Positions 33,545-64,000 of a DNA stretch of 64,000 nt are shown piece by piece; position 1 is the first letter of the stretch, and the number at the start of each line of letters is the position of its first letter. The DNA is from Duganella dendranthematis (lineage in GTDB: Bacteria; Pseudomonadota; Gammaproteobacteria; Burkholderiales; Burkholderiaceae_D). Below the pieces are notes generated by a model. That model was given only the letters and a program-made list of their open reading frames with translations, was not told the DNA's origin and did not search any database. The stretch is taken from the NCBI RefSeq assembly GCF_012849375.1, contig NZ_CP051684.1:2046001-2110000 (forward strand), in the 5' to 3' direction. A program made the position numbers and the translations under genes.

Positions 33545-36500
33545 ATGTCATTCAACTTATCCGACCTTACTACCGACCAACTCAAGGCACTGCAATCGGC
33601 ACAGATTGCTTCGCTGACGACGGCGGACGCCGCCACGCTCAGCACCTTGCAGATGACGTTGCTCAGCACGGCCCAGCTCAGCTGGTTCGGCACCGCGCAG
33701 CTGCGCGCACTGACGACGGCCACCTTGCACGCCATGGGGACGCAACAGTTGAATAGTCTGTCGACCAAGCAGGTCGCCGCCCTCTCCACGGCCCAGTTTT
33801 CCACGCTGAGCGACGACCAACTGGGCGCCGGCCTCACCACGGTCCAGTTCACGGCGCTCACCACCGCCCAGCTGGCCAGCTTGAGCCAGGCCCAGGTGGC
33901 GTTGATCGAAACCCAGGACTTGGCCGCACTGCGCACCGCGCAACTGGTCACGCTCAGCACCACCCAGCTGCGAGCACTCGGCAGCGACCAGCTGCAAGCG
34001 CTCACCACGGCGCAGACGGTTTCCCTGAAGACCCAGCAGATCGCCGCGCTGGCCAGCAACCAGGTCGCCAGCCTGACCACCCGCGAGATGGCCACGCTGA
34101 CCACGCTGCAACTGAACGCGCTGGACGCAGTTCAGCTGGGCGCCCTCGGCGACAGCCAGCTGGCCGCGCTGACCACGGCGCAAGCCGCCGGCCTGTCGAC
34201 CACGCAAATCGGCCGCCTCGGCACCGAACAGCTGGCCGCCCTGGGCAGCAACGGCCTGGCCGCGCTGAAAACCCAGCAGATCGCCGCCCTGACCACCACT
34301 CAGTTCACCGCCCTCAGCACCGACCAGATCGTCGCGCTGACCACCACGCAGATCCAGTCGCTGACCACGCAGCAACTGAGCCTGCTGTCCAGCGAGCAGT
34401 TGGGCGCGCTCAGTGCGCAAGACCTCGCCGCGCTGAGGACCCAGCAGCTGGCCGCGCTCGGCACCGGCGTCACCGCCATGCTCGGCACCAGCCAGATCGC
34501 CGCGCTCACCACCGCGCAGACCGCCGCCCTGCCAACCGCGCAACTGCGCGCTTTCAGCACCGACCAGATCGTGGCGCTGCGCACCGCGCAAGTCGCCGCG
34601 CTGACCACGCAACAAGTGCAGGCACTGAGCATCACCCAGCTGGCCGCGCTGGAAACCGTTGACCTGGCCGCCATGGGCACGGCGCAAGTCACCGCCCTCG
34701 GCACGGCCCAGGTCAGCGCGCTGACCGCGGCCCAGATTGCTGCCCTGCGCACGGTCCAGGCCAATGCGCTCAGCTCGCAACAACTGGCGGTGCTATCGAC
34801 CGAGCAGCTGGGCGCGCTAGAAACGGCCGACCTGGCCGCACTGCGCAGCAACCAGCTTGGCGGCCTCAGCACCGAACAGATCGCCGCGCTGCGCACCGAT
34901 CAGATCGCCGCCTTGGCCACGCTGCAGATCGCCGCGCTCAGCACCCGCCAGCTGGCGGCGCTGGACGACGCCCAGATCGTCAGCCTGACCACGGCGCAAG
35001 CAGCCGCACTCACCTCGGTGCAGATCGCCTCGCTGAGCACCAGCCAGCTGGCCGCGCTGGAAACGCGCGACCTGCTGGCCTTTAAAACCGCCCAGGTCGC
35101 CGCACTGACCAGCACCCAGCTGGGTGCGCTCGACGCCGCCCATTTCGGCAGCTTCAGCTCGCAGCAAATCGCCGCCCTGACCACCCTGCAAGTATCCACG
35201 CTGGGCAGCGCGCAATTGGTGGCGCTGTCATCGGCGGCGCTGGCCGGCCTGCAAACGCGGCAAGCGGTGGCGCTGTCCATTGACAACGTCCAGGCGCTCG
35301 GCACCGACCAGATCGCCGTGCTCAGCACCGCCGTCATCAACGCCTTCACCACCGCCCAGGTCGCCGCACTGTCAACCGACCAGATCGTGGCGCTGAGTAC
35401 GCAGCAAAGCATGGCGCTGGCGACGCGCCAGATCGCTGCGCTGACCGACGCCCAGCTGAACGCGCTGCAAACCCAGGACCTCGCCGCCTTCAAGACCCAG
35501 CAGATCGCCGCGCTCGGCACCAGCCAGATCGCCGCGCTGGACAGCGTGCATCTGATCGCCCTCGGCTCGCAGCAGGTGGCCGCGCTGGCCACGGCCCAGG
35601 TGGCCGCGCTCGGCAGCGACCAGGTCGCTGTCATGGAAACCCGCGACCTCGCCGCGCTCAGTTCGCGCCAGGCAGCCGCACTGAGCAACGACGCCGTGGC
35701 GGCGCTGACCACCACCCAGGTGTCGGCCCTGACTTCGACCGTGCTGAACGGCCTGTCCACGACCCAGTTCGGCGCGCTCGGCACCGACCAGATCGTCGCG
35801 CTGACCACGCAGCAAGCCACCCAACTGGCCACGCGCCAGATCGCCGCACTGTCGAGCGAACAGCTGGTGGCGCTGGAAACCCGCGACTTCGCCGCCCTCA
35901 AGACGGCGCAGATCGCCGCCCTGACGCCGGACCAGATCAGCAAACTGACGCTGGAGCAGATCGTGGCGCTGACCACCGCCCAGGCCAACGCGCTGACCGG
36001 CGTGCAGCTCAATGCGCTCACCACCGCCCAGCTGTCGGCGATGGAAACCCAGGACTTTGCCGCGCTGCGCACCAGCCAGCTGCTGGGCCTGGGCACCAAC
36101 AGTATCGCCATCCTGTCGCCGAACCAGGTGGCGGCGCTGAAGACGGAACAAGTCAGCCAGCTCACTTCGGACCAGATCCGCGTGCTCAGCAGCGACCAGA
36201 TCGGCGCCCTGACCACGCTGCAGGTGGGTGCCTTGAGCCCGCTGCAGATCAGCTACCTGCTGGCCAGCCAGTTGTCCGTGCTGAGCAATGCCGACTGGGC
36301 CGCGCTGAAGAGCCAGCAGCTCAACGCGCTCAGCACCGAACAGCTGGCCGCCGTCACCACCAGCCAGATCGTCGCGCTGACCACCGCGCAAGCCAGCCAA
36401 ATCGCCGCCAGCCAGCTGAACGCGCTGTCGTCCGAGCAGTTGAACGCGCTGGAAACCCGCGACCTGAACGCCCTCACCACGACCCAGATCGCCGCGCTTG

Positions 36501-43261: not shown

Positions 43262-43266
43262 ATGGC

Positions 43267-43412: not shown

Positions 43413-46400
43413 ATGACCTCTCAAGCATCTGCCGCACCCGCTTCTACCGATAACAGCCCGCTGGGTTCCGTCATGGCCATGGCCGTCAAGGGCCAGCTGT
43501 CCATCGCCGACCTGTTTGGCGCTACCGCCGTGCTGCAGGACAGCGGCCAGGCGCCCGCCGCCATCGCCCTGTACCGCGCCTGGATCGAGCACACGCCGTC
43601 GCCACTGATCTACGCCGCCTGCTTCAACCTGGCCGTGGTGCTGTCGAACAGCGGTGACGACGCCGGCGCCGAAGCGGTGCTGCGCAAGGCCATCGCCCAG
43701 AACCCGCATTTTGTCGAAGCCCGCCTCAACCTCGGCACGCTGCTGGAGCGCACCGGCCGGCCGGTCGACGCGCTGACCATGTGGCAGTCGATCCTGACCG
43801 ATCCGATCGAGCCGGACATCAAGTCCAACCGCACGCTGTATGTGCAAACCCTGAATAACCTCGGCCGTTTGCTGGAAATCCAGAAGCGCTACCCGGAAGC
43901 CGAAGCCATGCTGGCCACCAGCCTGCGCGTCGATCCGCAACAGGCCAGTGTGATGACGCACTGGGTCCACCTGCGCCAGAAGCAGTGCGAGTGGCCGGTC
44001 TACAGCGGCCTGGAAAACGTCTCGGTCGCCACCATGATGGAAGGCACTTCGGCGCTGGCCATGCTCAGCGCCTCGGCCGATCCGGCGCATCAGCTGGCCG
44101 CCGCCAAGCGCTTCGTCAATGAGAAGATCAACGCCGCCGTGGCGCCGCTCACCGGTCAGCACGGCTATAACCACCAGCGCCTGCGCATCGGCTATCTGTC
44201 GTCCGACTTCTGCTCGCATGCGGTGTCGATCCTGACCGCCGAGCTGTACGAGCTGCACGACCGCAGCAAGTTCGAGGTCTACGCCTTCAGCTGGAGCCGT
44301 GAAGATGGTTCGCCGATCCGCGCCCGCGTGGTCAAGGCGATGGACCACTACATCCGCATCGACAAGATGACCGACGAGCAGGCCGCCCGCACCATCCGCG
44401 CCCACGAGATCGATATCCTGGTCGACCTGCACGGCCTGACCCTGGGCGCCCGTCCGCAGATCATCGCCTACCGCCCGGCCCCGGTGCAGCTGACCTACCT
44501 CGGCTTCCCCGGCAGCACCGGTCTGCCCGGTATCGATTACGTGATCTCCGACGAGTTCCTGATCACCAAGGAGATGGAGCCGTTCTTCACCGAGAAGCCG
44601 CTGCACCTGCCGGACTGCTTCCAGATCAACGACCGCCAGCGTGCCATCGCGCCGACGCCGACCCGCGCCTCGGTCAACCTGCCGGACGACGCCTTTGTTT
44701 TCTGCTCGTTCAACAACAATTTCAAGTTCACGCCCGACCTGTTCAGCGTGTGGATGAACATTCTGCGCCGCGTGCCGAACGCAGTGCTGTGGCTGGTGGC
44801 CGACCATCCGGAAGTGCGCGAGAACCTGTACCGCCACACCGAAGAAGCCGGCATCGACCGCAACCGCATCATCTTCAACGGCCGCGCGGTGCCGGCCGAG
44901 TACCTGGCGCGCTACCAGCTGGCCGACCTGTTCCTCGACACCTTCCCGTTCAACGCCGGCACCACCGCCAGCGACGCCCTGTGGGCCGGCCTGCCGCTGC
45001 TGACCTGCGCCGGCCAGACCTTCGCCTCGCGCATGGCCGGCAGCCTGCTGCGCGCGGTCGACCTGCCGCAGCTGATCACCTACAGCTTTGCCGAGTACGA
45101 AGAGAAAGCCGTCGAGCTGGCCAGCAATCCGCAGCGCATCGCCTCGATGAAACGCCAGCTGCACGCTAACCGCCTGAACTCGGCGCTGTTCGACAGCCCG
45201 CGCTTCGTGCGCAATATGGAAGCGGCGCTGCAAAAAGTCGCCAAGCCGGCCGCGCCGCGCCTGGCCGCGCCGGACCATGCGGTACGGCCGCAGGAACCGT
45301 CGGAGCAGGCGGCGCCGGTGCGCATTGACCAGATCCCGATCGTCACCGTGTCGTACAACACGCCGGACCTGATCGACGGCCTGCTGCGCACGCTGCGCCA
45401 GTTCTACACCAACCGCGTGTATGTGATCGACGGCTCCAATCCGGATGTGGCGGAAACCATCCGCGCCGTCACGGCCGGCTATGACAATGTCGAATTCATC
45501 CCGTTCGGCTACAACATCCACCACGGCCCCGGCATGGCGTGGGCGATCAACCACCTCGGCCTGTCGGGCGAAGTGCTGTTCCTCGATTCCGACGTCGAGA
45601 TCCTGAAGGCCGGCTTCCTCGAATCGATGCACGCCGAGCTGCGTCCCGGCATGTACGGCGTCGGCTGCGTGCTGACGGTCGATTTGCTGGGCAACGACCG
45701 TCCGGACGACGGCACCGTGCCGTACCTGTACCCGGCCTGCATGCTGACCAATATCGACGTGGTGCGCCAATGGCCGCTGCCGATCAAGCACGGCGCGCCG
45801 ATGATCCCGACCATGCTGGCGCTGCACGCGGCCGATTCCAGCCACCTGGTGGCCAACATCCCGTGGGTCAACGAAGACTTCGCCAAGCAGCCGAAACGCC
45901 ATTACCTCAAGCACGACTGGCAGGGCACGGTGATCCGCACCGGCGGCTATCACTACGACCTGCCGAGCGCCACCACCGCCGTCAATGCCGACATGCTGCA
46001 CTTCATGCCGCCGCAGGCGCGCAAGATCGTCGAAGTCGGCTGCCGCGACGGCGCCTTCGCCAAGGCCTACAAACAGCGCAATTCGATCTGCAACTACACC
46101 GGCATCGAAGCCGATCCGGCGCTGGCGCAGACCGCCCGCCCGCACTGCGATTTTGTCTTCAACAACGACCTGGAACACGCCGGCCCCGACTTCTGGGACC
46201 ACGTGCGCCACGCCGATACCTGGGTGTTCGACGAAACGCTGGAGCAGATGGACGATCCATGGCGCATGCTGCGCAAGATCCGCACCAATATCGCCCCCGG
46301 CGGCAAGCTGGTGCTCACCATCCGCAACTTCCAGCACTGGAGCATGCAGGCGCGCCTGAACGCCGGCGACGTCCGCTACGGCACCGATGGCCTGGAAATG

Positions 46401-50207: not shown

Positions 50208-50216
50208 GGAGTGGTC

Positions 50217-50693: not shown

Positions 50694-50716
50694 GCCAACT
50701 AAGCCAACTAAGCCAG
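50691..50716. repeat. three-copy 9-base micro-repeat TAAGCCAAC
   Basis: TAAGCCAAC at 50691 and 50700 and TAAGCCAGC at 50709, spanning the stops of two convergent genes. It supplies a stop for each; slippage origin is likely. Confidence 0.7.
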
Positions 50717-52018
50717 CGTCGCCAGGTCCGCCAGGAAGGCGGGCGTGGCATGTGCGCTGAGGAACCTGTCGCGGCTGGAGGCGGCGTAGCGCGGATAGTC
50801 GGCCGCCAGCTGCGCCAGCAGCCCGCCGAGCTGGTCGGACGCGGTCCAGCGCAGGTATTGTTCCGGCAGCAGCGTCTTGTGCGCTTCGACGGTGAAGTCG
50901 TATTCGCCGTCGGTGGCCACCGCATCGTTGAACAGCACCGGCGCACCGGCGCACAACACCTCCACCAGCACCAGCACGCCGCCCACCGGGAAGCTCGGCA
51001 CGTACACGGCGTTCTGGATGGCGGCCGTGGCGGCCGACACCGACGCCACATTGCCGTGGTAGACAAAGCGCTCCCACGCCACGCCCTGCGCCCCCATGGC
51101 CGCGCGGATCAGCGCCAGTTCCGCATCGCCCAGGCTGCCGAAATGGTGGTGTTGGCCGGCGCCCTGCTTCAACAGTTGCGCCACCACATAAGGATACGAC
51201 GCCTCGGCCGGCTCGGCCGCGAACAGATACTTGGAAGCGCCGCCGGCGCTGATGGTGTTCAGCGGCAGGCCCGGCTGGTAGGCCGGCGACACCACATCGG
51301 TATTGATCAGCGTATCGTGAATATTCAGCACCACGCTCTCGTGACGCGGCGCCCGCTCGCAGCACAGACGCTGCAATTCGGTGGTGGTGTCGACGTGCGA
51401 ATACTCGCCCAGGCTGGCGCCCAGGCACGGCCGGTAATCGCAATGGTGATGGAAAATCTTCTTGCTGACCGGTGCGGCCAGCGTCGCCACCACCGGGATC
51501 GGATCAACGTGGTGGTTGAAGCACGACGTGTGGCTAGGCCGCAAATTCGTGATCAGCGCCACCAGCTGCTGCACCTTGAACGCCATGTTCCCGCGCGGCA
51601 GGAACAGCACCGGCGCCGGATGGAAAAAATCGATCATCTCCTGGCGTTGCTCGTCGTTCTGGTCGTTGAAGGTGTCGGTCACCACGACCAGGTTGTGCCG
51701 CTTGAGTTGCAGGAAATCGCGGGCGATGCGGCTATGCCCGCCGACATTCGAAAACTGCGACCCGATGATCAGGTGCAGGTCATTCTCCGCCGGGAACGGC
51801 GCCACGCCGTCATACAGCTTGCTGCCCAGTTCCTGCAGGATGGCGTCCAGCTGCGGGTAGAACAGCGCCTTCATGTGGAACATCTCATGCATGAAAGTGT
51901 TGTAGACGAAATTGCTGACCAGCCCCAGCACGTCATTGAGCGGCAGCCGCGCGGCCAGCTCCGGCGTCAATGTCTCGTCATGAAACATTACGTCCTGCTG
52001 AATTCGTTGAACAATCAT
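50708..52018 (-). CDS. GT-B-like putative glycosyltransferase, family unrecognised
   Basis: 436 aa from the ATG at 52018; the longer open frame overlaps the fkbH-like gene and is discarded. A helical start (NDVLGLVSNFVYNTFMHEMFHMKALFYPQL), IIGSQFSNVGGHSRIARDFLQL, a His-rich centre (CFNHHVDPIPVVATLAAPVSKKIFHHH) and a C-terminal nucleotide-sugar-like segment (VYVPSFPVGGVLVLVEVLCAGAPVLFND) where Glu-x4-G-P-V recalls GT4/GT41 enzymes. It is the last gene of the hlyB-hlyD-GT2-fkbH-like operon. A protein-glycan transferase is the best guess, from context and the C-terminal motif only. Confidence 0.6.
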   Translation of the reverse strand: MIVQRIQQDVMFHDETLTPELAARLPLNDVLGLVSNFVYNTFMHEMFHMKALFYPQLDAILQELGSKLYDGVAPFPAENDLHLIIGSQFSNVGGHSRIARDFLQLKRHNLVVVTDTFNDQNDEQRQEMIDFFHPAPVLFLPRGNMAFKVQQLVALITNLRPSHTSCFNHHVDPIPVVATLAAPVSKKIFHHHCDYRPCLGASLGEYSHVDTTTELQRLCCERAPRHESVVLNIHDTLINTDVVSPAYQPGLPLNTISAGGASKYLFAAEPAEASYPYVVAQLLKQGAGQHHHFGSLGDAELALIRAAMGAQGVAWERFVYHGNVASVSAATAAIQNAVYVPSFPVGGVLVLVEVLCAGAPVLFNDAVATDGEYDFTVEAHKTLLPEQYLRWTASDQLGGLLAQLAADYPRYAASSRDRFLSAHATPAFLADLATLA

Positions 52019-52040
52019 GGTTTTCTCGTGGTGAAGGTGG

Positions 52041-53849
52041 TCAGACCCACGTCGCCGGCACATGCGGCGCCAGCGGCGAGGCCGGCGCGGTGGTGCGCAG
52101 GAAGATTTGCGGGTTATCCGTGGCGACGAAGCCGGCGGCCGCAAACACCCCCTGCGACGGCGTGTTCTTGTCGGTCTTCAGTACCAGGCCGGACACCACC
52201 ATGGCCGGCTGGGCTTCCAGCAGCACGGCGATCACTTCGCGCAGCACCGCCAGCTCGATCTCCATGCCGAGCACGCGGCAGCTCATGACAAATTGCGTGA
52301 TGCAGTTACCCAGCGTGAACAACGCCCCCACCAGCCCGTATTCGGTGTAGCGGTCGCCGACCGAGAAGGCAAACACGCGCCCGCCCTGCGCCCAGTGCTG
52401 GTCGTAGTCCTCGGCCGAGCGGCGCGCGCCGACCGTGTTGAACTGGTTGGTCTTGTTGACCAGCTCCAGCACGCGGAAGAACTGCGGCGCCTCGCGGTTA
52501 TGGATCTCCACCAGCTCCAGCCGGGTATTCAGCTGGCGCAGGAATTCTTCGCGCGGCATGGCGGCGCGCTCTTCATCGCGCTTGACCTTGCCGATCAGCG
52601 AGGCTTCGCGCTGGGCCGACTCGGCGCTCAGGCGGGCGATCTGCGTCTCCGGCGCCCAGGTCAAAATACGCTTGATGGCGAACGGATCGGCGCCGATCAC
52701 CCGCATTTCCGGGTGCGCCATCTTGACCGCGTCGCGCTCGACCGGATTGTCGTCGACGAACACCACGTTCTTGGCCGTCAGCGACAACGCGTGCATGATG
52801 GTGGCGACATTTTCGGCCTTCGGCTGCCAGTTAATCTGCGGCACCAGGAAGTCGGAGAATTCAATGAACGGCAGCGGCACCACCTGGCGCCACTTGCCGG
52901 TCACCACCGCCTGGTCGTTCTTCGAGCACAGCGAAACGATGATGCCGCGCCGGCGCAGCTGGTTGATCGCGTCCCACACGCCCAACGGCCAGCCGAACAT
53001 CTGCGGCCACGCGCCCTGCGGCTCGTAATGCTCGCCGACCAGGCCGCGCCACATGGTGTTGTCGAGGTCGAAAATCACCAGCTTGACCGAATCGGTCTGG
53101 TGGATCACGCGGTGGATGGTTTCCATCTGGCGGTACACGGCGCCGTAGAATTCGCCGACCTTGCCGTCGTAACGCGCCACCTTGTCGAGATTGCCGTCCA
53201 GGCGGTTCGGCGCGTCGCCGGAAAACTCCTGTTCGGCCTCGATGAACTCATCCAGGCCCAGCGGCACGCCATGGGTGAAGAAGTACACCACGTCATCGAG
53301 GAAGTATTTCTTGCCCATCGACGCGGCAATCATATTGACGTCGGCCAGGTAAGCGTTGGGCAGCTTGCGCAGCGCGTCGGCCAGGTAGAAATTCAGTTCG
53401 GTGACGATGCGCGTGATGTCGAGCGCACTGTCCTGGTCGCTCAGGCTGGGCGCCAGCTTGCCTTGCGGGACCACAAAATTGGAGACCACGGTCAGCAGCG
53501 AGCCGCTGTAGGCCAGCGCGTACTTCAGCAGGAAATCGATGTTGGCCTTGCCCACTTCCAGCCAGTCGCTGGCGCCGCCGGCCGGCGGGCGGATCACGCC
53601 ATCCGTCAGCACATTGCGCAGCGGCAGCTGGATGTATTGCAGGTCAAACGTGGCCAGTTCTTCGCGCGACTTCTCCGGCAGCTGCATGGCGTTGCCGAAG
53701 ATGATGTTGTCGACTTCCAGCTGCGGATTGAGCTTCTTGAATTCGCTGTCGTAGGCTTCGGCCAGACAGGAGCCGATCACAATGATCTTCTTCAGCCCGG
53801 TCGGGTTGACTTCCAGGTCGCGCGGAAACAGGTAATCTGCGGTGTGCAT
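52041..53849 (-). CDS. FkbH-like HAD-IIIC protein with SGNH-like N-terminus and GNAT-like C-terminus
   Basis: 602 aa. Residues 20-250 resemble a degenerate SGNH hydrolase (IIVIGSCLAEAYDSEF, YLADVNMIAASMGKKYF). Residues 256-400 are a HAD domain with the DxDNT nucleophile motif LVIFDLDNTMWRGLVGE (Asp261, Asp263), LCSKND and FVDDNPVERDAV. The last 170 residues contain an acyltransferase-like fold (NKTNQFNTVGARRS, CRVLGMEIELAVLREV). FkbH-type enzymes load glyceryl or other acyl groups on carriers in polyketide and surface-glycan pathways. In this operon it may make or transfer an acyl substituent for the glycan. The specific reaction is not known. Confidence 0.85.
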   Translation of the reverse strand: MHTADYLFPRDLEVNPTGLKKIIVIGSCLAEAYDSEFKKLNPQLEVDNIIFGNAMQLPEKSREELATFDLQYIQLPLRNVLTDGVIRPPAGGASDWLEVGKANIDFLLKYALAYSGSLLTVVSNFVVPQGKLAPSLSDQDSALDITRIVTELNFYLADALRKLPNAYLADVNMIAASMGKKYFLDDVVYFFTHGVPLGLDEFIEAEQEFSGDAPNRLDGNLDKVARYDGKVGEFYGAVYRQMETIHRVIHQTDSVKLVIFDLDNTMWRGLVGEHYEPQGAWPQMFGWPLGVWDAINQLRRRGIIVSLCSKNDQAVVTGKWRQVVPLPFIEFSDFLVPQINWQPKAENVATIMHALSLTAKNVVFVDDNPVERDAVKMAHPEMRVIGADPFAIKRILTWAPETQIARLSAESAQREASLIGKVKRDEERAAMPREEFLRQLNTRLELVEIHNREAPQFFRVLELVNKTNQFNTVGARRSAEDYDQHWAQGGRVFAFSVGDRYTEYGLVGALFTLGNCITQFVMSCRVLGMEIELAVLREVIAVLLEAQPAMVVSGLVLKTDKNTPSQGVFAAAGFVATDNPQIFLRTTAPASPLAPHVPATWV

Positions 53850-53864
53850 GGCGTCGCCGCCCGA

Positions 53865-54656
53865 TCAGAAGTGCGACAGGTCGAAATGCAGGTTGGCGCT
53901 GGCCAGCAGCGCCTGGCGCGCCAGCCGCGTTTCCATATTGCGCGCCGGATGGCGGATGTACAGCTCCATCATCACCTTGACCACCAGCTCTTCATTCGAG
54001 TTACCGCGACGCATATTTTCCGGCGCGTCGGCGGGGGTCTTGTGGATCACCACGCCGTCGGTGGCAACGTGCGTTAGCGTGCAGCCTTTTTGCAGCACGC
54101 TCAGCAGGAAGTCCCAGTCTTCGTAGATCACCATGTCCGGATTGTTGGTGACGCCGTCCAGCACGTCACGGCGGTAGGCGATGCAGCTGTTGGGAATGCG
54201 GTTGCGGATATAGACGCTGTCGTCGGTGGCGTCGGCGATCGACACCTTGTGGGTCGGGCCTTGCGGCTCGGGCGGCGTCACCGCACGGTTCTCGAACTGC
54301 ACCTGCAGGTCGCAGAACAGCAGTTCCGGACGGTCGCCCTGGTCCAGGCGCGCCTTCAGCTTGGCCAGGTGGTCCGGCATGAAGGTGTCGTCGTCGTCGA
54401 GGAAAATGATGTAGTCGCCGGTGGCGATGGCCTGGCCCATGTCGCGGCTCGGCGCCGGACCGGGACGGCCACTGCAGCGCAGCACGTAGTCGAAACGGCC
54501 GCTGAAGTGCGCCAGATGATTGTACGGCGGGATATACGTGGCGCTGTCGGACACGATCACGATCTTGAAGTCCTGGCAGGTCTGCGCGATCAGCGATTCC
54601 AGCGTGCGCTGCAGCAGCACCGGCCGGTCATGGGTGGGGATGATGATGGTAAACAC
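53865..54656 (-). CDS. family 2 glycosyltransferase
   Basis: 263 aa GT-A enzyme: FTIIIPTHDRPVLLQRTLESL, FKIVIVSDSA, and the metal site YIIFLDDDDTFMPDHLA, then VIYEDWDFLLSVL with the catalytic-type Glu-Asp pair. Cytosolic, with no membrane segment. Lies 33 bases after hlyD and 15 bases before the FkbH-like gene, so it is co-transcribed with the secretion genes. Confidence 0.9.
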   Translation of the reverse strand: MFTIIIPTHDRPVLLQRTLESLIAQTCQDFKIVIVSDSATYIPPYNHLAHFSGRFDYVLRCSGRPGPAPSRDMGQAIATGDYIIFLDDDDTFMPDHLAKLKARLDQGDRPELLFCDLQVQFENRAVTPPEPQGPTHKVSIADATDDSVYIRNRIPNSCIAYRRDVLDGVTNNPDMVIYEDWDFLLSVLQKGCTLTHVATDGVVIHKTPADAPENMRRGNSNEELVVKVMMELYIRHPARNMETRLARQALLASANLHFDLSHF

Positions 54657-54689
54657 GTAGCCGGGCTCCGACAGGTTAATGGGTAGTAA

Positions 54690-56057
54690 TCAAGGTTCGC
54701 GGATCGATTCGTCCAGCGCGCGCGTCAGCGGATACAGCAGGTAGGACATCACGGTGCGGTGTCCCACGACGATCTCGGCCGACACGGTCATGCCGGGCAG
54801 CAGCCGCACGCCCGGCGGCAGCCGGTTCAGCTTGCCGGTGTACGGAATCCGGCTCAGGTAATAGGCGTCCAGCCCGCCGCCGCTGGTGTCCTTGGTCTCG
54901 CGCTTGAACGAATCCTGGCTGATGGTGCGCACTTTGCCTTCCAGCATGCCGTGCTTCATGAACGAGAACGCGTCGACCTTCAGGTGGACGTCGGCGCCCG
55001 GCTTGATGTAACCGATGTCGACCGAATCGATCTGCACTTCGGCTTCCAGGTCGGCGCCCAGCGGCACCAGCGTGAACAGCGGCTCGGCCTCGCGCACCAC
55101 CGACCCGACCGACAGCTTGCCGATTTCCAGCACCACACCGTCGGCCGGCGCCACCATCTGGATCAGCTTGAGGTGGCGGTCGGCCTTGGCCAGCTGCTCG
55201 GTGACGCCGGCGCGGTCGCGCGAGGCGCTCAGCAAGTCTTCCATCGCCTTCTGGCGCCAGCTCTTGCCGAAGGCGGCGCGCTCGGCTTCGGCCGAGGCCA
55301 GTTCGCTGGCCAGTTCGACCGCCTTGTTGCGTTGCATGTCCATGTCGCGCTCGACTTCGAGGCGGCGGTCGCGCGCTTCCAGCAAGTGCATCTTGGCACC
55401 GAACTGCTCGGCCATCAGCTGCTCCTGCATGGCTTCGACTTCGCGCAGCGACTTGACGCGCTCGGCCAGGATCACCTGGTCGTGCTTGTTGGTCAGCATG
55501 CTGGCCTTGAGGCGGGCGATGTTCTGGTCCATCTTGCTCTGCTGGGCCGCGAAATTGGCCTGGCGCTCGCTCGACAATTGCGACTGCAACTGGGCGTCGG
55601 CGCTGCTCTTGCCGACGTCGGCGGCGCCGCGCTGGCCGGACAGCTCGGCGCGCAGGCCGGCGGTCTGGTTGTCCAGACTTTCCAGGCGACTACGCAGCTG
55701 GCTCTCGTCGGCGGCGTTGAAGGTCGGGTCCAGCGTGGCCAGCACCTGGCCCTTGCGCACCACCTGGCCAACGCGCACGTCGATGCTCTGGATGATCGAG
55801 GTGTCCAGCGGCTGCACCACGATGTTCGGCAGCGGATTGACCAGCTTGCCATGGGCGATGACGATCTGGTCGATCGGCGACAGACTGGCCCAGACGATGA
55901 AGGCGGCAAACGCCAGCAGCAGCACATGCAGCGTGATGCGCACGAAGCGCGGCAGCGGCCCGCGCTCGATGGCGTCGGCATCCGGCAGGAATGCGACCTC
56001 GGTCTCGTCCTTGGCGCGACGCGCCCGGCTCACAGGTGACTTGTTTGCTGGTTCCAT
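54690..56057 (-). CDS. type I secretion membrane fusion protein (HlyD family)
   Basis: 455 aa. One membrane segment (about residues 40-58, ITLHVLLLAFAAFIVWASLS), lipoyl-type GKLVNPLPNIVVQPLDTSIIQSIDVRVGQVV, a long coiled coil (95-290), and the HlyD C-terminal GLDAYYLSRIPYTG with LLPGMTVSAEIVVGHRTVMSYLLYPLTRALDES, which is diagnostic of T1SS adaptors. It spans the periplasm between the ABC transporter and a TolC-like channel. Its start overlaps the transporter gene by 28 bases. No TolC gene adjoins, so the channel must be elsewhere. Confidence 0.95.
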   Translation of the reverse strand: MEPANKSPVSRARRAKDETEVAFLPDADAIERGPLPRFVRITLHVLLLAFAAFIVWASLSPIDQIVIAHGKLVNPLPNIVVQPLDTSIIQSIDVRVGQVVRKGQVLATLDPTFNAADESQLRSRLESLDNQTAGLRAELSGQRGAADVGKSSADAQLQSQLSSERQANFAAQQSKMDQNIARLKASMLTNKHDQVILAERVKSLREVEAMQEQLMAEQFGAKMHLLEARDRRLEVERDMDMQRNKAVELASELASAEAERAAFGKSWRQKAMEDLLSASRDRAGVTEQLAKADRHLKLIQMVAPADGVVLEIGKLSVGSVVREAEPLFTLVPLGADLEAEVQIDSVDIGYIKPGADVHLKVDAFSFMKHGMLEGKVRTISQDSFKRETKDTSGGGLDAYYLSRIPYTGKLNRLPPGVRLLPGMTVSAEIVVGHRTVMSYLLYPLTRALDESIREP

Positions 56058-58186
56058 AAGTGCTGGTAGGTTTCGCTGCGGGTAAGCAATTCTTCATGAC
56101 GGCCGGCATCGACCAGGCGGCCCTGCTGCATGACCATGATCTTGTCGGCGTTGACGAGAGTCGACAGGCGGTGTGAAATCATCACCACCGTGCGGCCGAC
56201 GGCGATTTTTGCCAGGTTGCTGATGAAAATCGCTTCCGATTCCGGGTCCAGCGCCGAGGCGGCTTCGTCCAGGATCAGGATGCGCGGACGGGCCACCAGC
56301 GTGCGGGCGATCGACAGCCGCTGCTTCTGGCCGCCCGACAGGTTCGAGGCGTTCTCTTCCAGCACGGTGTCGTAGCCCTGCGGCAGGCGTTCGATGAATT
56401 CGTCGGCGCCGGCCGCCTGGGCGGCGGCCACCAGTTCTTCAAAGCTGGCGTCCGGCTTGGTGACCGACAGGTTTTCGCGCACGGTGCCGCGGAACAGGAA
56501 GTTCTCCTGCAACACGACGCCGATCTGGCGGCGCAAATGCGCCAGCTCGATCTCGCGCGCATCGATGCCGTCGAAGCGGACGATGCCTTCCTGGACCGGA
56601 TACAGTCCCTGGATCAGCTTGGTCAAGGTGGTCTTGCCGGAGCCGCTGCGGCCGACGATGCCGACCACCGTGCCCTGTTCGATGGTGAAGCTGGCCTTGT
56701 CCAGCGCCAGCGCCTGCGCACCCGGATAGCGGAAAGTCACGGCGTCGAACTTGATCTCGCCTTCCAGCACCGGCCGCAGGCCGTTGGCGCCGGCGCGGCC
56801 TTCCGGCGCGCGATTCATGACCTCGCCCAGCATGCGCACCGACAGCGCGGTTTCCTGGTATTCGTTGACCAGGCCGACCAGCGAGATCAGCGGCTGGGTG
56901 ACGCGGCCCGACAGCATCTGGAAGGCGATCAGCGCGCCGACCGACAGCGTGTTGTCGAACACGTCGGCGGCGCCGACCACGATGATCAGCACCGGCAGCA
57001 GCTTGCCGAGGAAGTCGGTGACCGAGTTGCCGGCGATGGAAATCTGGCCGACGCGGAAGTGCATGGTGATCGCTTCAGCCGAGCGCTGGTCCCACACGCG
57101 GCGCTGCGACGGCTCGATCGCCAGCGCCTTGACAGTACGCATGCCGTGGATGGTTTCCACCAGCATGCCCTGGCGCTGGCCCTCGGCCGAGTACAGCGCT
57201 TGCAGGCGGCGGTTGAAGGTCGGCACCATGGCCAGCACCACGCCGGCGATCAGCGCGGCGAAGAACAGCACCAGCGAGGCCAGCTTGACAGAGTAGCTGA
57301 ACAGCACCGGAATGAACACCAGCAGCGCGATCACGTCCAGCGCCGTGAAGAACAGGCGGCCGGTCAGGAAGTTGCGGATTTTTTCCAGCTGCTGCATGTG
57401 GCGCGTGACCACGCCGGCGCTGGTGGTCTCGAAAAAATCGATCGGCAGCGACAGCAGGTGGCCGAACACGCGGCGCGTCAGCCGCATGTCGATCTTGTTA
57501 CTGGCCGCCAGCGTCAGCGTCTGGCGCAGGAAACCGAAGGTGGCGTCGAACGCCAGCGCCATGATGATGCCGACCGACAGCACCTGCAGCGTGGTCACGC
57601 TGCGGTGGGTCAGCACCTTGTCGATCACCAGCTGGAAGAAGATCGGCGAGGCCAGCGCCAGCAGCTGCATGGCAATGGCGGCGATGAAGATGTCGCGGAA
57701 GGCGGCTTTTTGTTTGAGGATTTCGGGAATGAACCAGCGCAGGCCGAACGGCTGGTTGGGGTCGCTGAGCTTGTGCTGGCGTTTGATGAACAGCACATCG
57801 CCCTGCCAGCGCTGCTCGAAGTCGCTGCGGCTGACCAGCACCACCACCGCGTTGGCGCTGGCCGGGTTGAGCACCGCCACATGGTCCTGGCCGCCGTTTT
57901 CCCCCGGCTTGACGCCGACCACGATCACCGAATTGCCGTCCACCAGGCGCGCCATCAGCGGGAACACGCCGCCTTGCGCCATCAGGCGCGACCAGGTCAG
58001 CTGGTCGGCCTTGGCTTTCAAACCGATATCCGAGGCGATGCGCAGCAAGGCGCCGACGCCGGGTTCCTCGGCGCGCAGCGCGTTTTCATCGATCAGGCGT
58101 TCCGGACTTATCTGCAGACCATGATGCTGGGCAATCGCAGTCAGGCACTGGATCGCGGTATGGGGAAATTTAGCTTGCATAGGCAT
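56030..58186 (-). CDS. type I secretion ABC transporter with degenerate C39-like domain (HlyB family)
   Basis: 718 aa. The N-terminal 130 residues are a C39-like domain (TAIQCLTAIAQHHGLQIS). At the usual catalytic Cys position there is Thr, and the Cys present is four residues later, so it should be an inactive HlyB-type substrate-binding domain. The membrane domain (about 150-440) has six helices. The ATPase holds Walker A GRSGSGKTT (about 512), signature NLSGGQKQRLSIA and Walker B ILILDEAASALD. It exports unfolded proteins by an uncleaved C-terminal signal. First gene of the operon with hlyD, GT2, fkbH-like and a GT, set between the two giant repeat proteins that are its likely cargo. Confidence 0.95.
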   Translation of the reverse strand: MPMQAKFPHTAIQCLTAIAQHHGLQISPERLIDENALRAEEPGVGALLRIASDIGLKAKADQLTWSRLMAQGGVFPLMARLVDGNSVIVVGVKPGENGGQDHVAVLNPASANAVVVLVSRSDFEQRWQGDVLFIKRQHKLSDPNQPFGLRWFIPEILKQKAAFRDIFIAAIAMQLLALASPIFFQLVIDKVLTHRSVTTLQVLSVGIIMALAFDATFGFLRQTLTLAASNKIDMRLTRRVFGHLLSLPIDFFETTSAGVVTRHMQQLEKIRNFLTGRLFFTALDVIALLVFIPVLFSYSVKLASLVLFFAALIAGVVLAMVPTFNRRLQALYSAEGQRQGMLVETIHGMRTVKALAIEPSQRRVWDQRSAEAITMHFRVGQISIAGNSVTDFLGKLLPVLIIVVGAADVFDNTLSVGALIAFQMLSGRVTQPLISLVGLVNEYQETALSVRMLGEVMNRAPEGRAGANGLRPVLEGEIKFDAVTFRYPGAQALALDKASFTIEQGTVVGIVGRSGSGKTTLTKLIQGLYPVQEGIVRFDGIDAREIELAHLRRQIGVVLQENFLFRGTVRENLSVTKPDASFEELVAAAQAAGADEFIERLPQGYDTVLEENASNLSGGQKQRLSIARTLVARPRILILDEAASALDPESEAIFISNLAKIAVGRTVVMISHRLSTLVNADKIMVMQQGRLVDAGRHEELLTRSETYQHLWNQQTSHL

Positions 58187-58385: not shown

Positions 58386-58404
58386 CTGTTACCGCGCTGT
58401 CAGA

Positions 58405-61400
58405 TTACTTGGCTGCCAGCAGGCCGTGTTGCGCGCCGTTTTGCAGTGCTTTCAGACGCAGCGTCTCTTCCGTCGAAGCCGAGTGGCTGGCCGCGGTCAG
58501 CTTGTTCTCGTAGCTGCCGATGGCGCTGGCCAGGGCGGCCACCGAACCGTTGCTGCTGGTTGGGACTTCCAGCTTGGTGCTGCCGCTGGTAGCCGGCTGG
58601 CTGGTGTAGCTCGACATCGCCGACGACAGGTTGCTGACCGAGCTGGTCAGGCTGCTGCTGGTGGCGCCGGCGCTGAACCAGACGTCCGCTGCGGTGTGGC
58701 TGGCGCCGTCGGCGGTCTCGTAGGTCGAAGTCAGACCGACGATGTTGCCGTTGTTCAGCGACGGGTTGTGCTTGGCATCCAGGTTCAGCTTGGTGATGTT
58801 CAGATCGGCCAGCGATTTGAGTTCATCAGCCTGGCTGACACCGTCGCCGTTGGCATCGACCCACACTTGCAGTTTCGAGAACTGGCTGTCTTTGGCATCG
58901 ACCACGCCGTCGCCGTTGGTATCCAGTTCCGCCAGGGCGGCGTAGCCGTTCGAGGCTTTGCTGCCGTTGGCCAGCGTGGTGCCCGAGCCGAACAGTTCGC
59001 CACCATTGTTGATGGTGCCGTCACCGTTGCGGTCCAGGACCAGCAGGCCGTCGCCACCGCCAACCCAGCCGGTGCTGACTTTGCTGCCGTTGGCCAGCAT
59101 GTCGAACTGCACACCTGCCGTCGAGCTGATGGTGTCGATGCCGTTGCCGTTCAGGTCCAGCACCAGCGGCGTGAAGGTCGGCAGCGCGGAGATCTGGTCG
59201 GTGCTCATCGCCTGGACTTGCGACGAGGTCAGCGCATGGATCTGCGAGGTGGTGAACGAATGCACCTGGTTCGTGCTCAGGCCGGCGATCTGTTCGGTCG
59301 TCAGGCGCGAGAACTGGGCGGTGCTCAGGGCTGCGATGGAGCTGGTGTTCATCAGACCCAGATCAGCCACTTCGATCGCCTGCACGCCGGCGGTGGACAG
59401 CGCGCGGACTTGCGCGGTGGTCAGCGAATTCAGCTGCTCACTCGACAGGGCCACGATCTGCGCGGTGGTGATACCGGACGCCATCACGGCGGTGCTGAGT
59501 GCTGCCAGCTGGCCGTTGGTGAAGCCGATGATCTGCTCGGTGCTCAGGGCAGCCACTTGCGAGGTCTTCAGTGCGGCAACCGACGCGGTTTTCAGCACGG
59601 CCAGGTCTTCGGTTTCCAGCACGGCGACGCTGGCGGTGCTCAGGGCAGCCACTTGCGACGAGCTCAGGACCGCAGCCTGGTTGGTGCTCAGCGCCACTGC
59701 CTGTTCGGTGCTCAGGCTGTTGACCTGGGCCGTGGTCAGCACTTGCACGCTGCTGGTGTTCAGCACGTTGAACTGATTGGTGGTCAGGGCGCGAACCTGG
59801 GCGGTGCTCAGGGAAGCGACCGACGCCGTGGTCAGCGCGTTGAGGTCTTCGGTTTCCAGCGCGGCGATCGCTTCGGTGGTCAACGACACCACTTGACGGC
59901 TGCTCAGCGCGGCTGCCTGGTTGGTGGTCAGCGCCACCACCTGCTCGGTGGTCAGGGCCTTGATGGCGGCGGTGCTGATCGCAGCAGCCTGACTCGAGGT
60001 CAGCTGGCCGATCTGCTCGGTGGTCAGGCCGGTGATCTGGGTCGATTTCAGGGCTGCGATGCCGGCAGTGGTGATGCTGCTGACGTCCGCCGCGTCGATC
60101 GCCGCCACGTTGGTCGACGACAGCGCGCTGATTTGCGCGGTGGTCAGGCCAGCGAACTGGTTCGAGGTCATCGCCACGATCTGGTTGGTGGTCAGGCCCG
60201 ATGCGACGTCGAGGGTGCTCATCGCGGCGAACTGGCCGGTGGTCAGACCCTGGACCTGCTCGGTGGTCAGTGCAGCAACCTGGGCGGTGCTCAGGGCGCT
60301 GAACGACGCGGTTTTCAGCGCGACCAGATCTTCGGTTTGCAGCGCAGCGATCGACTCGGTGGTCAGCGAGCGGACTTGAGCGCTGCTCAGTGCGCTAGCC
60401 TGGCCGGTGGTCAGGGCAACGATTTGCTCGGTGGTCAGGGCGACGATCTGGGCGCTGCTCAGACCAGCGATGGTCGAGGACTTCAGTGCGGCGAAGTCTT
60501 CGGTTTCCAGCGCGGTGATCGCGGCGGCGGTCAGCGAATTGACCTGTGCGCTGCTCAGTGCGGCTGCCTGGTTGGTGGTCAGCGCGACGACTTGCTCGGT
60601 GGTCAGCGCCTTGATGGCGGCGGTGCTGATGGCGGCAGCCTGGCTCGAGGTCAGCTGGCCGATCTGCTCGGTGGTCAGACCGGTGATCTGGGTCGATTTC
60701 AGGGCTGCGATGCCGGCAGTGGTGATGCTGCTGACGTCGCCGGCTTCAATCGCGGCCAGGTTGGCGGACGACAGTGCGCCAACTTGCACGGTGGTCAGGC
60801 CGGCGAACTGGTTCGAGGTCATCGCCACGATCTGGTTGGTGGTCAGGCCCGAGGCGACGTCGAGGGTGCTCATTGCGGCGAACTGGGCGCTGGTCAGGCC
60901 CTGGATCTGTTCGGTGGTCAGGGCAGCGACTTGACCGGTGCTCAGCGAAGCGAAGGCGGCGGTTTTCAGTGCAGCCAGGTCTTCGGTTTGCAGGGCGGCG
61001 ATCGACTCGGTGGTCAGCGAGCGGACTTGAGCGCTGCTCAGTGCGCTAGCCTGGCCGGTGGTCAGGGCAACGATTTGCTCGGTGGTCAGGGCGACGATCT
61101 GGGCGCTGCTCAGACCAGCGATGGTCGAGGACTTCAGTGCGGCGAAATCTTCGGTTTCCAGCGCGGTGATCGACGCGGCGGTCAGGGCGTTGACTTGAGC
61201 GCTGCTCAGTGCGGCTGCCTGGTTGGTGGTCAGCGCGACGACTTGCTCGGTGGTCAGCGCCTTGATGGCGGCGGTGCTGATGGCGGCAGCCTGGCTCGAG
61301 GTCAGCTGGCCGATCTGCTCGGTGGTCAGACCGGTGATCTGGGTCGATTTCAGGGCTGCGATGCCGGCAGTGGTGATGCTGCTGACGTCGCCGGCTTCAA

Positions 61401-64000
61401 TCGCGGCCAGGTTGGCGGACGACAGTGCGCCAACTTGCACGGTGGTCAGGCCGGCGAACTGGTTCGAGGTCATCGCCACGATCTGGTTGGTGGTCAGGCC
61501 CGAGGCGACGTCGAGGGTGCTCATTGCGGCGAACTGGGCGCTGGTCAGGCCCTGGATCTGTTCGGTGGTCAGGGCAGCGACTTGACCGGTGCTCAGCGAA
61601 GCGAAGGCGGCGGTTTTCAGTGCAGCCAGGTCTTCGGTTTGCAGGGCGGCGATCGACTCGGTGGTCAGCGAGCGGACTTGAGCGCTGCTCAGTGCGCTAG
61701 CCTGGCCGGTGGTCAGGGCAACGATTTGCTCGGTGGTCAGGGCGACGATCTGGGCGCTGCTCAGACCAGCGATGGTCGAGGACTTCAGTGCGGCGAAATC
61801 TTCGGTTTCCAGCGCGGTGATCGACGCGGCGGTCAGCGAATTGACCTGTGCGCTGCTCAGTGCGGCTGCCTGGTTGGTGGTCAGCGCGACGACTTGCTCG
61901 GTGGTCAGCGCCTTGATGGCGGCGGTGCTGATGGCGGCAGCCTGGCTCGAGGTCAGCTGGCCGATCTGCTCGGTAGTCAGACCGGTGATCTGGGTCGATT
62001 TCAGGGCTGCGATGCCGGCAGTGGTGATGCTGCTGACGTCGCCGGCTTCAATCGCGGCCAGGTTGGCGCTCGACAGCGAAGCAACTTGCACGGTGGTCAA
62101 ACCAGCGAACTGGTTCGAGGTCATGGCCACGATCTGGTTGGTGGTCAGGCCCGAGGCGACGTCGAGGGTGCTCATCGCGGCGAACTGGGCGCTGGTCAGA
62201 CCCTGGATCTGTTCGGTGGTCAGGGCAGCGACTTGACTGGTGCTCAGCGAAGCGAAGGCGGCGGTTTTCAGTGCAGCCAGGTCTTCGGTTTGCAGGGCGG
62301 CGATCGACTCGGTGGTCAGCGCGCGGACTTGAGCGCTGCTCAGTGCGCTAGCCTGGCCGGTGGTCAGGGCAACGATTTGCTCGGTGGTCAGGGCGACGAT
62401 CTGGGCGCTGCTCAGACCAGCGATGGTCGAGGACTTCAGTGCGGCGAAGTCTTCGGTTTCCAGCGCGGTGATCGCGGCGGCGGTCAGCGAATTGACCTGT
62501 GCGCTGCTCAGTGCGGCTGCCTGGTTGGTGGTCAGCGCAACCACTTGTTCTGTGGTCAGCGCTTTGATGGCGGCGGTGCTGATCGCAGCAGCCTGGTTCG
62601 AGGTCAGCTGGCCGATCTGCTCGGTGGTCAGGCCCGTGATCTGGGTCGATTTCAGGGCAGCGATGCCGGCGGTGGTGATGCTGCTGACGTCAGCGGCTTC
62701 AATCGCGGCCAGGTTGGCGCTCGACAGCGAAGCAACTTGCACGGTGGTCAAACCAGCGAACTGGTTCGAGGTCATGGCCACGATCTGGTTGGTGGTCAGG
62801 CCCGAGGCGACGTCGAGGGTGCTCATCGCGGCGAACTGGGCGCTGGTCAGACCCTGGATCTGTTCGGTGGTCAGGGCAGCAACCTGGCCGGTGCTCAGCG
62901 ACGAGAACACGGCGGTCTTCAGTGCGGCCAGGTCTTCGGTTTGCAGGGCGGCGATCGACTCGGTGGTCAGCGCGCGCACCTGGGCGCTGCTCAGTGCGCT
63001 AGCCTGGCCGGTGGTCAGGGCGACGACTTGTTCCGTGGTCAGGGCGACGATCTGGGCGCTGCTCAGACCGGCGATGGTCGCAGTTTTCAGCGCGGCGAAG
63101 TCTTCGGTTTCCAGCGCGGTGATCGACGCGGCGGTCAGCGCGTTGACCTGTGCGCTGCTCAGGGCGGCTGCCTGGTTGGTGGTCAGCGCCACGACTTGCT
63201 CGGTGGTCAGGGCCTTGATGGCGGCGGTGCTGATCGCAGCAGCCTGGCTCGAGGTCAGCTGGCCGATCTGTTCGGTGGTCAGGCCCGTGATCTGGGTCGA
63301 TTTCAGGGCTGCGATGCCGGCGGTGGTGATGCTGCTGACGTCAGCGGCTTCAATCGCGGCCAGGTTGGCGCTCGACAGCGAAGCAACTTGCACGGTGGTC
63401 AAACCAGCGAACTGGTTCGAGGTCATGGCCACGATCTGGTTGGTGGTCAGGCCCGAGGCGACGTCGAGGGTGCTCATCGCAGCGAACTGGGCGCTGGTCA
63501 GACCCTGGATCTGTTCGGTGGTCAGCGCGGCAACCTGGCCGGTGCTCAGCGACGAGAACACGGCGGTCTTCAGTGCAGCCAGGTCTTCGGTTTGCAGGGC
63601 GGCGATCGATTCGGTGGTCAGCGAGCGCACTTGGGCGCTGGTCAGCGAGTTAGCCTGGGCGGTGGTCAGTGCAACGGCTTGTTCGGTGGTCAGGGCGGCG
63701 ATCTGGGTGCTGCTCAGGCCGGCCAGGGTGGCGGTCTTCAGTGCGGCGAAGTCTTCGGTTTCCAGCGCGGCAAACGAGGCGGTGCTCAGTGCGCTCAACT
63801 GGCGGCTGTTCAGTGCGCCAGCCTGGTTGGTGGTCAGCGCGACGATTTGTTCGGTGGTCAGGATTTTGACTTGGCCGGTGGTCAGGCCTTGGAGACCGGT
63901 GGTGCTCAAAGCGGCAAAATTGGTCGCACTCAGCAATGGCACATTGGCGCTCGAAATGGCGCCAACTTGGGTCGAGGTCAGTACTTGGAACTGATTGGTG
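58405..64000 (-). CDS. second giant octapeptide-repeat protein with type I secretion C-terminus (5' end outside window)
   Basis: The frame stays open from the stop at 58405 to the right edge (at least 1865 codons). A GTG at 63942 is not a real start, since octads continue on both sides of it. The repeat part (59185 to edge, about 200 octads, LTTEQIVA, LSSAQVNA) ends LPTFTP, followed by a C-terminal domain of about 255 residues with LDLNGNGIDT, DRNGDGTINN, DTNGDGVVDA and DANGDGVSQADE, clearly homologous to that of the first giant protein, then a different Ser/Thr-rich tail ending HGLLAAK. Likely exported by the T1SS encoded next to it. Function inferred as for the first protein; a paralogue made by duplication. 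Confidence 0.92.
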   Translation of the reverse strand, partial: TNQFQVLTSTQVGAISSANVPLLSATNFAALSTTGLQGLTTGQVKILTTEQIVALTTNQAGALNSRQLSALSTASFAALETEDFAALKTATLAGLSSTQIAALTTEQAVALTTAQANSLTSAQVRSLTTESIAALQTEDLAALKTAVFSSLSTGQVAALTTEQIQGLTSAQFAAMSTLDVASGLTTNQIVAMTSNQFAGLTTVQVASLSSANLAAIEAADVSSITTAGIAALKSTQITGLTTEQIGQLTSSQAAAISTAAIKALTTEQVVALTTNQAAALSSAQVNALTAASITALETEDFAALKTATIAGLSSAQIVALTTEQVVALTTGQASALSSAQVRALTTESIAALQTEDLAALKTAVFSSLSTGQVAALTTEQIQGLTSAQFAAMSTLDVASGLTTNQIVAMTSNQFAGLTTVQVASLSSANLAAIEAADVSSITTAGIAALKSTQITGLTTEQIGQLTSNQAAAISTAAIKALTTEQVVALTTNQAAALSSAQVNSLTAAAITALETEDFAALKSSTIAGLSSAQIVALTTEQIVALTTGQASALSSAQVRALTTESIAALQTEDLAALKTAAFASLSTSQVAALTTEQIQGLTSAQFAAMSTLDVASGLTTNQIVAMTSNQFAGLTTVQVASLSSANLAAIEAGDVSSITTAGIAALKSTQITGLTTEQIGQLTSSQAAAISTAAIKALTTEQVVALTTNQAAALSSAQVNSLTAASITALETEDFAALKSSTIAGLSSAQIVALTTEQIVALTTGQASALSSAQVRSLTTESIAALQTEDLAALKTAAFASLSTGQVAALTTEQIQGLTSAQFAAMSTLDVASGLTTNQIVAMTSNQFAGLTTVQVGALSSANLAAIEAGDVSSITTAGIAALKSTQITGLTTEQIGQLTSSQAAAISTAAIKALTTEQVVALTTNQAAALSSAQVNALTAASITALETEDFAALKSSTIAGLSSAQIVALTTEQIVALTTGQASALSSAQVRSLTTESIAALQTEDLAALKTAAFASLSTGQVAALTTEQIQGLTSAQFAAMSTLDVASGLTTNQIVAMTSNQFAGLTTVQVGALSSANLAAIEAGDVSSITTAGIAALKSTQITGLTTEQIGQLTSSQAAAISTAAIKALTTEQVVALTTNQAAALSSAQVNSLTAAAITALETEDFAALKSSTIAGLSSAQIVALTTEQIVALTTGQASALSSAQVRSLTTESIAALQTEDLVALKTASFSALSTAQVAALTTEQVQGLTTGQFAAMSTLDVASGLTTNQIVAMTSNQFAGLTTAQISALSSTNVAAIDAADVSSITTAGIAALKSTQITGLTTEQIGQLTSSQAAAISTAAIKALTTEQVVALTTNQAAALSSRQVVSLTTEAIAALETEDLNALTTASVASLSTAQVRALTTNQFNVLNTSSVQVLTTAQVNSLSTEQAVALSTNQAAVLSSSQVAALSTASVAVLETEDLAVLKTASVAALKTSQVAALSTEQIIGFTNGQLAALSTAVMASGITTAQIVALSSEQLNSLTTAQVRALSTAGVQAIEVADLGLMNTSSIAALSTAQFSRLTTEQIAGLSTNQVHSFTTSQIHALTSSQVQAMSTDQISALPTFTPLVLDLNGNGIDTISSTAGVQFDMLANGSKVSTGWVGGGDGLLVLDRNGDGTINNGGELFGSGTTLANGSKASNGYAALAELDTNGDGVVDAKDSQFSKLQVWVDANGDGVSQADELKSLADLNITKLNLDAKHNPSLNNGNIVGLTSTYETADGASHTAADVWFSAGATSSSLTSSVSNLSSAMSSYTSQPATSGSTKLEVPTSSNGSVAALASAIGSYENKLTAASHSASTEETLRLKALQNGAQHGLLAAK
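59185..64000 (-). repeat. 24-base (octapeptide) repeat array of the second giant gene
   Basis: About 200 octads in view, consensus as in the first giant gene but with more Glu at position 4 (LTTEQ). Acidic octads occur as LETEDFAA, LQTEDLAA, MSTLDVAS(G) and IEAADVSS, spaced 7, 5, 5 (plus one Gly) and 10 octads apart in a repeating pattern. Confidence 0.92.
59850..63755 (-). repeat. 651-base higher-order tandem repeat, six periods
   Basis: The CGGTTTCC marker of the LETED octad falls at 59850, 60501, 61152 and then every 651 bases to 63756. The GCGACGTCGAGG marker falls at 60203, 60854, 61505, 62156, 62807 and 63458. Each unit is 27 octads plus one Gly (217 aa). The units covering about 60550-61183 and 61201-61834 are identical over about 630 bases; outer units are more diverged. 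Confidence 0.95.

Follow-up and report, generated by a model that had tools for sequence, protein, structure and literature searches.

ALTTAQ octad giants and a partner GT41 enzyme in Duganella dendranthematis: a probable bacterial protein-glycosylation and type I export system

GT41 glycosyltransferases of one OGT-like clade track giant proteins built from ALTTAQ octads across bacterial genomes, and this gene partnership is well supported. It is probable that both genes belong to a single scheme, in which the Ser/Thr residues of the octads would be O-glycosylated in the cytosol by the GT41 enzyme, and the product would then leave the cell by type I export as a sugar-coated surface fibre or coat. 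The window, that is, the whole stretch of 64,000 nucleotides analysed here, corresponds to positions 2046001-2110000 of a 6.53-Mb single-contig genome and contains the following features (coordinates within the window):

33545..43261, plus strand: mega1, ALTTAQ octad protein of 3,238 aa, with about 369 octads, then an SPM-like domain, then a low-confidence tail of about 80 aa
42488..42997, plus strand: domain at the C-terminus of mega1, homologous to the self-processing module of FrpC, with Thr-Pro where FrpC has Asp-Pro
43413..46619, plus strand: fusion of TPR, GT41 (OGT-like), a weak GT2-like part and a methyltransferase; sole GT41 found in the genome
46641..47558, plus strand: GT2 glycosyltransferase (PF00535)
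47555..47986 (start approximate), plus strand: FdtA-type dTDP-sugar ketoisomerase (PF05523)
48015..48899, minus strand: hexapeptide acyltransferase and FdtA fusion (PF00132, PF05523)
49092..50207, plus strand: DegT/DnrJ/EryC1 sugar aminotransferase (PF01041)
50211..50693, plus strand: hexapeptide acyltransferase (PF00132)
50708..52021 (start uncertain), minus strand: protein without a matched family, with a 31% homologue in genome G034 (tblastn)
52041..53849, minus strand: FkbH-domain protein (TIGR01686, 172.4 bits, cut-off 146.65)
53865..54656, minus strand: GT2 glycosyltransferase (PF00535)
54690..56057, minus strand: HlyD-type membrane fusion protein (PF13437)
56030..58186, minus strand: HlyB-type type I secretion ATPase (Pfam ABC domains; TIGR01846 at 640.7 bits, below the curated cut-off of 725.55)
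58405..64000, running off the window, minus strand: mega2, ALTTAQ octad protein; ORF of 1,923 aa with its start outside the window, residue 20 being the likely start
58672..59169 (limits approximate), minus strand: SPM-like domain of mega2, aligned with the mega1 domain
60000..63700 (limits approximate), minus strand: higher-order repeat in mega2, of 651 bp (217 aa), most 600-bp windows being 92-99% identical at this lag

The initial annotation, whose interpretation is partly supported, had placed two giant octad genes on either side of an HlyBD pair and glycosylation genes. This arrangement is real: both giants are uninterrupted frames and belong to the Pfam family PF20080 (ALTTAQ_rpt), scoring 1,825 bits for mega1 and 1,133 bits for mega2 against a gathering cut-off of 26.4 bits. 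HlyB, HlyD, the TPR-GT41 fusion, the two GT2s, the FkbH-like protein, the DegT aminotransferase, the two hexapeptide proteins and the two FdtA domains were all confirmed as true family matches, and the protein at about 50708-52021, which had been called another GT-like protein, matched no family in a Pfam and NCBIfam scan. The octad is already known as a Pfam sequence family and hence is not a new repeat, and a search of the literature for a published function retrieved no paper naming ALTTAQ or PF20080. Two hydroxyl residues had been claimed for most units, which is loosely correct, an octad having on average 1.84 Ser/Thr in mega1 and 2.28 in mega2.

In mega1 there are 369 octads, with only 23 of the first 2,975 residues lying outside them, and the 1,864 aa of mega2 within the window comprise 199; octads account for 84-91% of the two proteins. 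No shuffled ORF scored above 25 bits with an octad HMM built here, thus the pattern is not due to chance. The 217-aa repeat of mega2 covers most of about 3.5 kb and is a sign of recent amplification, while mega1 shows none at the 651-bp lag (0.32). RTX-type Gly/Asp-rich Ca2+ nonapeptides were not noticed by eye in the translations.

Five ALTTAQ ORFs were read in this genome: mega1, mega2, one at 902 kb (3,187 aa), one at 2197 kb (809 aa) and one at 2199 kb (2,241 aa). The 3,187-aa gene (L031/L032, genome positions 902275-911838) is located between fliR and flgL, inside a flagellar gene cluster, and an ALTTAQ gene has the same placement in a genome of the same genus (G079:C11). At its other end, the window carries type VI secretion genes (127-6727, minus strand), namely VgrG (3146-5779), TssG (5789-6727), a DUF4123 protein and a candidate Tle1-like phospholipase effector; the GC content of its first 4 kb is 0.47-0.51 vs 0.59-0.70 elsewhere in the window.

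AlphaFold2 predicts approximately one short helix per octad. Among PDB entries, the octads match HeliScrew4 (9zem), a designed protein with octads of the LTPEQIAA kind, with an E value of 1.3e-18 over 112 residues. This likeness is by sequence, and HeliScrew4 differs from mega1 and mega2 in being designed, in having 120 aa and in carrying mostly one Ser/Thr followed by Pro per octad; no paper on HeliScrew4 was found in a literature search. The C-terminal domain is homologous in fold and sequence to the self-processing module (SPM) of FrpC from Neisseria meningitidis (PDB 6sjw). However, the FrpC module has a scissile Asp-Pro at its N-terminus, whereas the residue before the conserved Pro was Thr in 42 and Ser in 12 of the 54 ALTTAQ copies matching the motif searched, a count that leaves out copies lacking the conserved Pro or the motif. 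With Asp in 0 of the 54, self-cleavage at this domain by the FrpC mechanism is ruled out. Several ALTTAQ proteins (in G758, G849 and G520) have no SPM-like domain.

Residues 1-620 of the fusion comprise the TPR and GT41 parts, the latter matching profile PF13844 with 285.9 bits. Its closest solved relatives are XcOGT (5.7e-90) and human OGT, with NGT far behind, which places it in the OGT-like branch, and the His and Lys that we take to be catalytic in GT41 align with those of XcOGT (alignment judged by eye). The combination of TPR and GT-B is also the FlmG-type architecture. Duganella levis (strain CY42W) has the nearest named GT41 among the matches listed (97%), and the identity comparison of GT41 loci from the family draw took in 29 besides the window's own. 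The NGT model NF049992 scored only 29.6 bits against a cut-off of 1000, and the two repeat regions contain just 4 and 2 N-x-S/T sequons. Their near-absence implies that any octad modification should be O-linked, and the few sequons and low NGT score together rule out N-glycosylation of the HMW1C type.

The partnership was approached from the GT41 side through 78 named loci, 50-97% identical (genome scan, at least 50% identity), which are the best 78 of at least 484 confirmed relatives and are weighted to Oxalobacteraceae; L224 and L239 share one genome, and many contigs end inside the flank. With the flank call set at more than 40 bits for an HMM derived in this work from the two giants, an ALTTAQ ORF was present in the flank of 45 of these best 78 of at least 484, and in 34 of the 78 the ALTTAQ gene is directly upstream of GT41 on the same strand, with a gap of less than 600 bp. 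For 31 of the remaining 33 loci, ALTTAQ is found elsewhere in the genome, so that ALTTAQ-bearing genomes hold 76 of the 78; it was not found in the genomes of L267 and L284, both of them MAGs. Pseudomonadota, Thermodesulfobacteriota and Acidobacteriota are the phyla spanned by the GT41-ALTTAQ loci. In a GT41 tree of 110 rows, a set of 91 with 99% support contains 88 rows from ALTTAQ-bearing genomes and three without (L267, L284 and G095); nine rows had been added as members of ALTTAQ loci, seven of which fall within this set. All 110 rows required 7 label changes vs 17.0 after shuffling, none of 500 shuffles being as low, in a tree from a quick search, with long branches and with 7 duplicate rows dropped before counting. 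Pseudomonas, Propionivibrio, Comamonadaceae, Methylococcaceae, Geobacteraceae/Desulfuromonadaceae and Holophagaceae are represented in the 91-row set, with possible misbinning of the rows that come from MAGs. Although G073 and two genomes of family f200 (G520, G567) have ALTTAQ, their GT41s lie outside this set, which indicates that the partner enzyme is not of one lineage only.

From the ALTTAQ side, the family draw gave ALTTAQ in 14 of 116 genomes, and GT41 was present in all 14 vs 47 of the 102 others (Fisher 5.6e-5). The two genes are at most 25 kb apart in 10 of the 14; in the other four they are about 38 kb apart (G024), 0.5 Mb apart (G001) or on separate contigs (G017 and G108). ALTTAQ was found in 8 of 370 genomes of the class draw, one being the window's own, and GT41 in six of the seven others, G167 being the one in which no GT41 was found. 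The phylum draw yielded ALTTAQ in 24 of 397 genomes, with GT41 in 15 of the 24 vs 113 of 373 others (p 0.0016), 11 of the 15 coming from the single family f200. When f200 is removed the figures are 4 of 13 vs 113 of 373 (p 0.59), thus presence alone is not significant at this level and it is physical linkage that carries the argument: GT41 lies about 85 bp downstream of a 5,432-aa ALTTAQ ORF in G779, the gap is about 105 bp in G758, and in G849 GT41 is about 2 kb upstream of ALTTAQ. Among 14 control genomes, Caulobacter vibrioides is the only carrier of PF20080 and one of the two with GT41.

There are exceptions in both directions. G095, of the same genus and in one contig, has GT41 and no ALTTAQ was found in it, and GT41 was not found in nine of the 24 ALTTAQ genomes of the phylum draw, namely G635, G637, G687 and G799, from one family, and G658, G676, G529, G596 and G836, with one to five weak matches each. 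The 4,039-aa ORF of G635 (L216/L217) has 33 LTPEQ-type octads and otherwise consists largely of non-octad sequence; fliP/fliR-like genes are located some 8 kb away from it, and no GT41 was found in that genome. In the G799 protein, with 170 octads, Ser/Thr occupies position 3 in 26% and position 4 in 25%, and Pro amounts to 3.7%. The octad proteins parsed from GT41-bearing genomes have Ser/Thr at position 3 in 60-93%, except for the two of G758 (22-36% at position 3 and 56-77% at position 4, one having 3.8% Pro). Octad Ser/Thr thus appears to be retained in GT41-bearing lineages, which is suggestive only, the contrasting GT41-less set being two proteins of one family. As to f200, genomes G517, G557, G564 and G567 show up to 57 GT41 matches, some within ORFs of 2,300-3,800 aa, and the octad proteins of G520 and G567 have the highest Ser/Thr per octad among those parsed (3.14 and 2.56).

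Export of the ALTTAQ protein by a type I system is likely. Pfam matches identify both an HlyB-type ABC exporter and HlyD next to mega2, the TIGR01846 score being under its cut-off as listed above. An HlyB 74-90% identical to that of the window lies about 2 kb or less from ALTTAQ in G079, G037, G053, G034, G001, G101, G108 and G024, and one of 50-60% identity is placed likewise in G320, G214 and G520; the parts of G758, G849, G567 and G110 that were read gave no HlyB. A minimal set, ALTTAQ-GT41 with OEP-HlyD-HlyB, occurs in G779 and in Pseudomonas L296 with a different type of T1SS from the window's, and counts as one case, since the two GT41s are sisters in the tree. HlyD and HlyB likewise adjoin ALTTAQ-GT41 in P. 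viridiflava L276, and the HlyB next to ALTTAQ belongs to different HlyB clades in different lineages. The OEP that adjoins HlyD-HlyB in G779 and L296 is a TolC-type pore, and none was seen among the window genes scanned. In the parts of this genome that were read, HlyBD of the window type is beside mega2 only and a single GT41 was found; the five ALTTAQ ORFs may therefore share one enzyme and one exporter.

We read the association with flagellin as real but secondary. In G110, G001, G024, G053 and G042 the distance between flagellin and an ALTTAQ gene is about 0.5-1 kb, in G017 flagellin adjoins GT41, and it is a possible second substrate. Sigma-28-like sites were scored upstream, the share of background at least as good being 0.025 for mega2, 0.24 for mega1, 0.098 for the 902-kb gene and 0.035 for the fliC control. 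FlmG of Caulobacter crescentus (PMC7591256) is soluble, combines a substrate-binding TPR N-terminus with a GT-B domain, and acts on flagellin by O-linkage. Given the layout common to FlmG and the GT41 fusion (PMC7591256), the GT41 could itself be a flagellin O-glycosyltransferase, ALTTAQ being near it through shared flagellar or surface regulation and not as a substrate. The five genomes with flagellin near ALTTAQ, the case of G017, the location between fliR and flgL here and in G079, and the presence of flagellin in all 22 genomes searched (chosen, not drawn) would be consistent with this reading, which we nevertheless regard as unlikely. Flagellin occurs in only 4 GT41 flanks vs 45 for ALTTAQ among the best 78 of at least 484, and nine other flagellar proteins searched were found in none of the same 78. 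Moreover, the minimal sets of G779 and L296 have a T1SS and zero matches to those nine proteins, no flagellin match is near GT41 in this genome, and the flagellins of G095 (1.26 Mb) are next to GT41s with lower profile scores and not near its clade GT41. The substrate of FlmG passes through the flagellar apparatus, whereas the tight partner of GT41 here is ALTTAQ with a T1SS. That a single GT41 modifies both proteins, which together would form a glycosylated motility or surface-spreading coat, is likewise doubtful, even though both recur as neighbours and this genome has several flagellin matches and no fewer than five ALTTAQ genes for the one GT41 found.

Glycosylation of the octads by the GT41 of the clade is the reading that we prefer and is likely. 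Around it, in the flanks of the best 78 of at least 484 GT41 loci, DegT aminotransferase-like genes were counted in 39, GT2a-like genes in 31 and FdtA in 23. Since FdtA is in just 23 of the 78, the sugar pathway is a variable add-on, and a fixed role for the FdtA pathway is ruled out. GT41, which was the query, is the constant part and the rest is a variable glycan cassette. Loci for surface polysaccharides often contain FdtA, FkbH and GT2 genes, and ALTTAQ occurs without GT41 in the nine phylum-draw genomes, the matches being strong or repeated in four of these; still, it is very improbable that the ALTTAQ proteins are unmodified exported adhesins and that GT41 and the sugar genes work for LPS, capsule or some other glycan sharing the locus, because the GT41-ALTTAQ pair is kept while the sugar genes vary, even alone with a T1SS, and because all GT41 enzymes of known function, to our knowledge, act on proteins. 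The initial annotation had asked whether the octad genes are always accompanied by GT41, HlyBD and fdtA. The company of GT41 largely stands within one GT41 clade (76 of the best 78 of at least 484 loci, and 14 of 14 in the family draw) and breaks down in G095 and in nine of the 24 phylum-draw genomes; that of HlyB is seen in many of the genomes read, not in all; and that of fdtA does not stand, given its presence in no more than 23 of the 78 flanks.

According to the scheme proposed, each octad would form one short helix of a giant exported solenoid, with one or two Ser/Thr exposed at the turn between helices. The cognate clade of cytosolic OGT-like TPR-GT41 enzymes would O-glycosylate these residues, the TPR part probably reading the repeat, and strain-specific GT2, FdtA and aminotransferase genes would then supply or extend the glycan. 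HlyB/HlyD with a TolC-type pore would export the protein as a type I system, and the Ca2+-binding SPM-like domain, devoid of the scissile Asp, would fold outside and hold or nucleate the fibre. The product may plausibly be a surface fibre or coat of large size and covered with sugars, which could have a part in motility or surface contact where flagellin genes adjoin.

HMW1C is a GT41-type enzyme, and HMW1 is secreted by two-partner secretion. In Haemophilus influenzae, HMW1C modifies the large secreted adhesin HMW1 at many sites (PMC3012730). That system is N-linking and uses two-partner secretion, whereas the present locus has an OGT-like GT41, hardly any sequons in the repeats, octads predicted to form a helical solenoid and an exporter of type I. 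The repeats of SiiE and LapA are beta or Ig-like. SiiE is a very long repetitive adhesin served by a type I system (PMC6272769). Both are giant T1SS adhesins, and they differ from the proteins described here in their beta or Ig-like repeats as opposed to predicted helical octads with a partner GT41. Compared with secreted surface proteins already known to be modified in the cytosol by GT41 enzymes, the present case would bring a new type of substrate, an O-linking enzyme clade and a type I exporter. ALTTAQ-GT41-T1SS could be a separate and widely spread bacterial system of protein glycosylation and export, an assessment we hold with balanced confidence, producing a mucin-like glycoprotein with a helical-screw rod, hundreds of Ser/Thr sites, a dedicated cytosolic OGT clade and a C-terminal non-cleaving SPM-like domain.

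A type I exporter is thought to carry unfolded chains. If the scheme is correct, giant genes known to date just as a Pfam repeat would be given a partner enzyme and a mechanism as well as a predicted fold, and a cytosolic OGT-like enzyme would have before it hundreds of near-identical candidate sites in regular succession. The system would then lend itself to studying the recognition of repetitive substrates by a TPR-OGT and the passage of bulky glycoproteins through a type I exporter.
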